Assembly: GCA_012798695.1 (NCBI GenBank)
Contig: JAAZMR010000125.1
Coordinates: 17,340 to 81,339 of the forward strand
From: Bacillota bacterium
GTDB lineage: Bacteria > Bacillota > Limnochordia > DTU087
Length of the DNA stretch: 64,000 nucleotides
Reading direction: 5' to 3'
The notes under the pieces are model-generated. The model did not search any database. It saw nothing but the letters and a program-made list of their open reading frames with translations, and was not told the DNA's origin. Positions 53,948 to 54,868 of this stretch are shown here, piece after piece (within the stretch, counting starts at the first letter, position 1; the number at the start of each line of letters is the position of its first letter). The position numbers and the translations under genes are program-made.

Positions 53948-53976
53948 TTGTGCCCTAGCTGCTTTCTAGTTATACT
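53948..53976 (+). promoter_or_regulatory. Promoter for riboswitch transcript
   Basis: TTGTGC - 17 nt - TATACT. Confidence 0.5.
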
Positions 53977-53983
53977 ATAGTTA

Positions 53984-54095
53984 GATGCTTAATCCATTCA
54001 CTGGAACGGGGGATCCCATGGGTGAATCTGCGAAAAGCAGAGGGGCGACCCGGCCCTAACCGTACAGCTAACCTCGTAAGCGTAGGGGGAAAACT
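53984..54095 (+). ncRNA. Cyclic di-AMP riboswitch (ydaO-yuaA class)
   Basis: GCTTAATCC..GGAACGGGGGATCCC..GGGTGAATC..GAGGGGCGACCCGGCCCTAACCGTACAGCTAACCTCGTAAGCGT matches conserved ydaO blocks recalled from B. subtilis; 5' GCTTA pairs with 3' TAAGC. Confidence 0.9.
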
Positions 54096-54112
54096 GCTCG
54101 GGAGGGATCAGC

Positions 54113-54271
54113 ATGAATCGATGCACCGATTGCGGTGAACGCATCGCCACTTGGGAGGATTACTGTCCAAAATGTGGTGCACGCAAAATGATCACAGGAA
54201 AGACTAAGGAAGTTCCGCAAGCGAAGAAGAAAAAGTTGGGATTGTTCAGCCGATTGCGCAGGACTCCTTAG
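54113..54271 (+). CDS. Unannotated 52-aa zinc-ribbon protein
   Basis: MNRCTDCGERIATWEDYCPKCGARKMITGKTKEVPQAKKKKLGLFSRLRRTP*; two CxxC; GGGAGGG RBS; absent from ORF track (short). Confidence 0.8.
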   Translation: MNRCTDCGERIATWEDYCPKCGARKMITGKTKEVPQAKKKKLGLFSRLRRTP

Positions 54272-54306
54272 ATTGGTTGGAGTCATGCAAGATGAATAAA
54301 AAAGTG

Positions 54307-54350
54307 CCCTAAAAGTTCGCCCACTGCAATGAGCCGGCGAACTTTTAGGG
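54307..54350. terminator. Bidirectional rho-independent terminator
   Basis: CCCTAAAAGTTCGCC ... GGCGAACTTTTAGGG, 15-bp perfect stem, TTTCTTC follows. Confidence 0.85.
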
Positions 54351-54382
54351 TTTCTTCACACAGCAAACTGGCAATGATCTGC

Positions 54383-54769
54383 CTAGCCCACTGGCTGGCC
54401 TTTCCAGAGGCCGTGCAAATTACAGAAAGCCCTGGCTTCTACATCCTCTGCAGTAATGCAAAACTTAGCTTTGGGCAAGTCACCTGGTTCGAGAAACTCA
54501 CGGTATACAACCCCGTCAGCGATTAACTCTATCCATTCGATATAATGTACTGCCTGCATGGGATGGGCATCACTGCCTACCTCCACCTGGTAACCATCAG
54601 CTAGCTTGGTAACCATCGGTACGTGCTTCTCCCGAGATGCATCAACGGTGTTCTCTTCGTGCAATACCATGGGCTCACCACAGCAAACTAACGTCCCAGC
54701 ACCTGCCCGGACCATTTCTACCATGTTTCCGCACTGCTTGCATTCATAGACTTGGTTTAACTTGGTCAT
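54383..54769 (-). CDS. dfx: Desulfoferrodoxin / superoxide reductase
   Basis: YECKQCGNMVEM...LVCCGEPM; EKHVPMVTK; HPMQAVHYIEWIEL; FCNLHGLWKG. Confidence 0.95.
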   Translation of the reverse strand: MTKLNQVYECKQCGNMVEMVRAGAGTLVCCGEPMVLHEENTVDASREKHVPMVTKLADGYQVEVGSDAHPMQAVHYIEWIELIADGVVYREFLEPGDLPKAKFCITAEDVEARAFCNLHGLWKGQPVG

Positions 54770-54868
54770 CATATTGCCTCCCCACTTACATCTTCGCTTA
54801 TCCTGGTAGTTATAATCATTACCGTTTTTGCACCAAGTTAAACCTCTTTATTCATTGCCATCAGACGA

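Follow-up and report, generated by a model that had tools for sequence, protein, structure and literature searches.

Known targets of c-di-AMP riboswitches

The targets covered in reviews of c-di-AMP riboswitches are transporters, cell-wall proteins, and osmotic-stress proteins (PMC7266159, PMC7288161). A literature search for ydaO together with "zinc ribbon", with the crystal-structure and the 2010/2013 ydaO papers outside its scope, did not find the two combined. By a simple test, 70 of the 80 other RF00379 loci in the class carry a terminator. The genome from which the window (the whole 64-kb stretch of DNA analysed) was taken encodes two more RF00379 elements besides the one described here (L045 and L046). 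These belong to the same Rfam family, with scores of 110 and 93 bits, but both are full-length aptamers that precede genes of transport type, which on reading of their sequences encode a substrate-binding-like protein (L045, where a terminator hairpin lies before the gene) and a SulP-like transporter (L046). The locus in the window, judged by its sequence, is a member of this known riboswitch class with a new and recurrent target (a mini zinc ribbon), a compact aptamer, and a platform that lacks a terminator.

Organization of the unit

The locus appears to be a single-gene unit comprising a promoter, a compact c-di-AMP riboswitch, a 52-amino-acid ORF, and a terminator; taken whole, and with switching ON by the ligand included, we regard this explanation as about evenly balanced between right and wrong. 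Its features are as follows.

53948..53953, + strand: -35-like box TTGTGC, read directly; CTTG is invariant in 10 homologous loci
53971..53976, + strand: -10-like box TATACT after a 17-nt spacer, read directly; TATA is invariant in 10 loci
53976..54096, + strand: c-di-AMP (ydaO) riboswitch aptamer, compact variant; RF00379 at 67.7 bits, contact positions largely kept
53987..53990, + strand: 5' strand of helix P1, GCUU, which pairs with AAGC at 54078-54081; three of the four pairs are invariant in 10 sequences
54049..54051, + strand: CCC of loop L6, in a proposed pseudoknot with the tail GGG at 54085-54087; both sides are invariant in 10/10
54072..54075, + strand: CCUC, candidate anti-Shine-Dalgarno, which pairs either in aptamer helix P3 or with the Shine-Dalgarno; the alternative is possible in 10/10
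54095..54098, + strand: UGCU, a copy of the P1 5' strand; invariant in 10/10 within an otherwise variable linker
54100..54106, + strand: Shine-Dalgarno GGGAGGG, read directly
54113..54271, + strand: ORF of the 52-amino-acid mini zinc ribbon, CxxC-x10-CxxC with a basic tail; homologues in 10 genomes, coding signature
54307..54353, + strand: intrinsic terminator with a 15-bp stem, read directly
54383..54772, - strand: convergent desulfoferrodoxin gene, outside the unit; Pfam PF01880 / PF06397

Direct reading found the promoter-like boxes, the conserved ydaO blocks, the GGGAGGG ribosome-binding site, the 52-amino-acid ORF, and the 15-bp terminator of the initial annotation all in place. The promoter boxes are largely invariant across the ten homologous loci, and transcription from them would start almost at helix P1 of the riboswitch. 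The stem of the terminator, which would end the transcript, is a perfect 15-bp inverted repeat (CCCTAAAAGTTCGCC at 54307-54321 and GGCGAACTTTTAGGG at 54336-54350) followed by TTTCTTC, and its A-rich flank would also serve the convergent desulfoferrodoxin gene. Both this terminator and the convergent neighbour agree with the proposal that the unit contains no gene other than the 52-amino-acid ORF.

Conservation of the riboswitch-ORF pairing

The ORF is present in 9 of 11 genomes of the same family of uncultured Bacillota, with RF00379 just upstream in all nine. A tenth copy, also accompanied by the riboswitch, was found on a DTU084 contig (L079) among the named genomes searched, which are metagenome-assembled Bacillota/Clostridia. 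The initial annotation had raised the question whether relatives carry homologues of the ORF behind ydaO elements; they occur there at every locus where the ORF was found. All ten known copies, from ten genomes, share the same promoter boxes, the compact aptamer, a leader of 28-31 nt, and the ORF.

The surrounding gene order (rSAM, TetR, the unit, desulfoferrodoxin, and a C_GCAxxG protein) is kept in most loci, within the reach of their contigs. In the two family genomes without the ORF, the flanking TetR and desulfoferrodoxin genes also gave no match, so the whole block is either missing or unassembled there. The contig with the tenth copy (G103:C40) is 1254 nt long and comes from a genome assigned to a different family of the phylum; this copy may be mis-binned.

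A compact variant of the c-di-AMP aptamer

The ydaO-class assignment was borne out by the covariance-model check, in which RF00379 matched positions 53976-54096(+) over the full model length (1-134) with a score well above the gathering cutoff (67.7 versus 38 bits, E 1.5e-13). This is the sole Rfam match in the window, and the homologous aptamers score 57.5-69.6 bits against the same model. The aptamer resembles canonical c-di-AMP aptamers in its core motifs, helices P1-P6, the position of the proposed pseudoknot, and nearly all listed contacts, but it is shorter, with a reduced hairpin after P3, an L6 of 6 nt, and a pseudoknot that would have 3 bp; its platform also differs from that of canonical elements in having no terminator and a target gene of a new kind. 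The CCC/GGG pairing between L6 and the 3' tail is possible and invariant in all ten copies, and as it shows no covariation the pairing is a proposed one; the site aligns with the L6/3'-tail complementarity of canonical aptamers.

Ligand contacts were mapped through what we take to be the T. pseudethanolicus sequence. Of the 28 letters in the published list of c-di-AMP contact positions (PMC7288161), 27 match it. In the alignment of the ten copies, 27 of the 28 listed positions carry only bases that are also found in canonical aptamers. Two departures, combined with the compactness of the variant, could point to a changed ligand, such as another cyclic dinucleotide or a nucleotide: contact C89 is lost in 10/10 copies, and contact A72 is replaced by G, a minority base at this position in canonical aptamers, in 7/10. 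However, the bases at the remaining contact positions all occur in canonical aptamers, the loss of C89 is accompanied by that of its G partner, and the U65A/A66G/G84U changes of the variant are also present in some canonical aptamers. A changed ligand was rejected as the main reading because nearly all contact positions are kept, and we consider it very unlikely.

The mean column identity of the aptamer is 87%. R1, a model made from all ten copies and run over 300 genomes of the phylum, scored 124-139 bits solely at this locus and at most 64.5 bits elsewhere. By sequence comparison, the element is a compact, apparently lineage-specific variant of the known c-di-AMP riboswitch class, for which binding of c-di-AMP is predicted.

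The 52-amino-acid protein

The ORF starts at the ATG at 54113 and has the cysteine pattern CTDC-x10-CPKC. Pairwise differences over codons 3-28 amount to 0.108 for first, 0.126 for second, and 0.526 for third codon positions, the last value being about four times as high as the other two, and mean dN is about 0.08 versus a dS of about 1.4 (pairs with finite dS). This concentration of differences at third codon positions indicates that the ORF is coding. The core of the protein (MAKCVDCGERIAxWEDYCPKCGARK) is strongly conserved, with all four Cys residues invariant in the homologues, and the tail is variable and basic; a conserved core combined with third-position differences argues that the protein is real in evolutionary terms. 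The ORF might instead be spurious, and the riboswitch a relic or a regulator of another gene, given that the ORF is short and under many gene-caller cutoffs; this is scarcely credible in view of the codon-position signature, the Shine-Dalgarno and start codon conserved in ten loci, and the terminator and convergent gene that come next. Standard annotation probably misses the 52-amino-acid gene.

The zinc-ribbon profile PF13240 (Zn_Ribbon_1) scored 20.6 bits (E 0.00037), under the Pfam cutoff of 25, and no NCBIfam or Pfam model exceeded its cutoff for this protein. Searches of the PDB by sequence and by fold returned no significant relative; Foldseek matches were mostly small zinc fingers, the best E being only 0.84. 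The structure model is fair for the putative ribbon, with a pLDDT of about 80 for residues 1-20, and poor for the tail. An amphipathic, MinD-like membrane tail, suggested by eye, was discarded, its hydrophobic moment being not above that of shuffled sequences (p 0.13-0.45).

By analogy, the likeliest role of the protein is that of a binding adaptor. It may be a small adaptor, stabilised by zinc, with a basic tail that could bind RNA, protein, or membrane and in this way might tune the response to c-di-AMP.

Most genomes of the family also encode a second zinc ribbon of about 52 amino acids (L056-L062, L064, and L065; CPEC...CKKCGAAF...GFFARLFGRK type), which is weakly similar to the ORF in the window.

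Probable control of translation

The distance from aptamer helix P1 to the start codon is 31 nt in the window and 28-31 nt over the ten loci, and in none of the ten is the aptamer separated from the ORF by a terminator, the longest T run being 1 in the window and at most 2 in all homologues. A terminator would not fit into so short a leader, so the obvious interpretation is translational control, as had been suggested in the initial annotation, and from the sequence it is the most likely mode of control of the 52-amino-acid ORF.

The direction of control is suggested by two elements of the leader. UGCU in the linker can pair with AGCG (P1 3' strand), whereupon CCUC is free for the Shine-Dalgarno; a copy of the P1 5' strand together with a segment able to cover the Shine-Dalgarno suggests that c-di-AMP switches translation ON. 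In the absence of c-di-AMP, UGCU would oust the P1 5' strand from its pairing with AGCG, and CCUC, released from P3, would cover the Shine-Dalgarno. When c-di-AMP is bound, helices P1 and P3 and the L6/tail pseudoknot would form and leave the Shine-Dalgarno exposed. The riboswitch RNA would in this manner control translation of the stand-alone 52-amino-acid zinc ribbon, the protein being made at high c-di-AMP.

For the alternative helix, 97.5% of cells are paired, versus 43-64% in slid controls; this helix shows no covariation among the ten sequences, its bases being nearly invariant. When linkers were shuffled, the alternative hairpin proved significant in G006 (p 0.004), G002 (p 0.002), and G003 (p 0.005), in the last of which a nearly perfect hairpin of 16 bp covers the Shine-Dalgarno, whereas in 7/10 sequences, including that of the window (p 0.20), it was no stronger than with shuffled linkers. 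The statistics back ON switching in only these three of the ten sequences. C-rich aptamer segments are able to pair with any Shine-Dalgarno, which weighs further against the ON reading.

The absence of an above-chance hairpin in 7/10 sequences would also be expected if the aptamer bound c-di-AMP without any switching platform and the conserved leader mainly set RNA stability or basal translation. The conservation of the aptamer exceeds the need of such a role, and UGCU is invariant in the linker; we consider this reading improbable.

The same unit might also work as a translational OFF switch if, in the bound state, the Shine-Dalgarno were masked by the C-rich junction segment GAUCCC (54012-54017) or by the adjacent folded aptamer. 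Known Bacillus c-di-AMP riboswitches repress (PMC7288161), other mini zinc ribbons of the class sit behind terminator-type elements, and in 7/10 sequences GAUCCC is able to base-pair with GGGAUC of the Shine-Dalgarno region, a pairing of the kind that free folds use. However, no bound-state-specific sequestering structure is common to all ten sequences, the UGCU copy of P1 is left unexplained, and it is the unbound form that hides the Shine-Dalgarno in G002, G003, and G006. We regard OFF switching as possible, though on the unlikely side. If ON switching is the true mechanism, the element would represent a c-di-AMP riboswitch acting through activation of translation instead of termination of transcription. 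The leader and the peptide are small enough for testing in a laboratory host.

Small proteins behind other c-di-AMP riboswitches of the class

Mini zinc ribbons also occur behind other RF00379 elements of the class. In family f13, a ribbon of 55-59 amino acids lies right after the riboswitch in 4/4 copies (two of the 80 loci and two further genomes; L161-L164, M.VC.KC...YC..C). Like the protein in the window, these ribbons are stand-alone, directly follow RF00379, and have CxxC-x10-CxxC with a Tyr before the second pair; unlike it, they are preceded by a canonical aptamer and a terminator, and their identity to the ORF in the window is only about 31-35%. Because high c-di-AMP is expected to turn such classical terminator elements OFF, the f13 ribbons provide an argument against ON switching in the family of the window.

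In family f9, a riboswitch (L141) is followed by a 48-amino-acid ribbon with a GTG start (VRFCKDCYTPHRDYELYCRKC...) and then by a second CxxC ORF of 60 amino acids. The f13 and f9 ribbons and the ORF in the window all share a CxxC-x10-CxxC pattern in which a Tyr precedes the second CxxC.

More distant mini zinc ribbons, stand-alone proteins of 42-58 amino acids from other Bacillota (L166-L171), match the Zn_Ribbon_1 profile with E 1e-7 to 2e-9. These proteins and PF13240 resemble the ORF in the window in CxxC-x10-CxxC and a short basic tail, but none of L166-L171 has RF00379 upstream.

The c-di-AMP regulon would be widened to include small proteins by this conserved single-gene unit for a 52-amino-acid zinc ribbon, along with the comparable pairings in two further families of the class. 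More broadly, the lineage-specific compact riboswitch may be a translational ON switch for a mini zinc ribbon and one instance of a recurrent, unrecognised connection of c-di-AMP with very small proteins in the class (mini zinc ribbons, the HPRQK family, and peptides of about 30 amino acids), a reading that we advance tentatively and place somewhat below an even chance.

Several other small ORFs were observed behind c-di-AMP riboswitches of the class. At ten loci (L109, L111, L119, L120, L122, L124, L129, L133, L136, and L148), the riboswitch is followed by an ORF of 47-58 amino acids with the motif end E.HPRQK (HPRHK in L111); two members were tested, and neither had a Pfam match. Peptides of about 30 amino acids with PVKL(S/P)N.VR and a hydrophobic stretch lie behind the riboswitches at L095, L106, L108, and L139, and the one tested had no Pfam match. 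Veg-like proteins are found at L093, L104, L118, L127, L130, L146, and L159; the one tested matched Pfam VEG at 3e-25.
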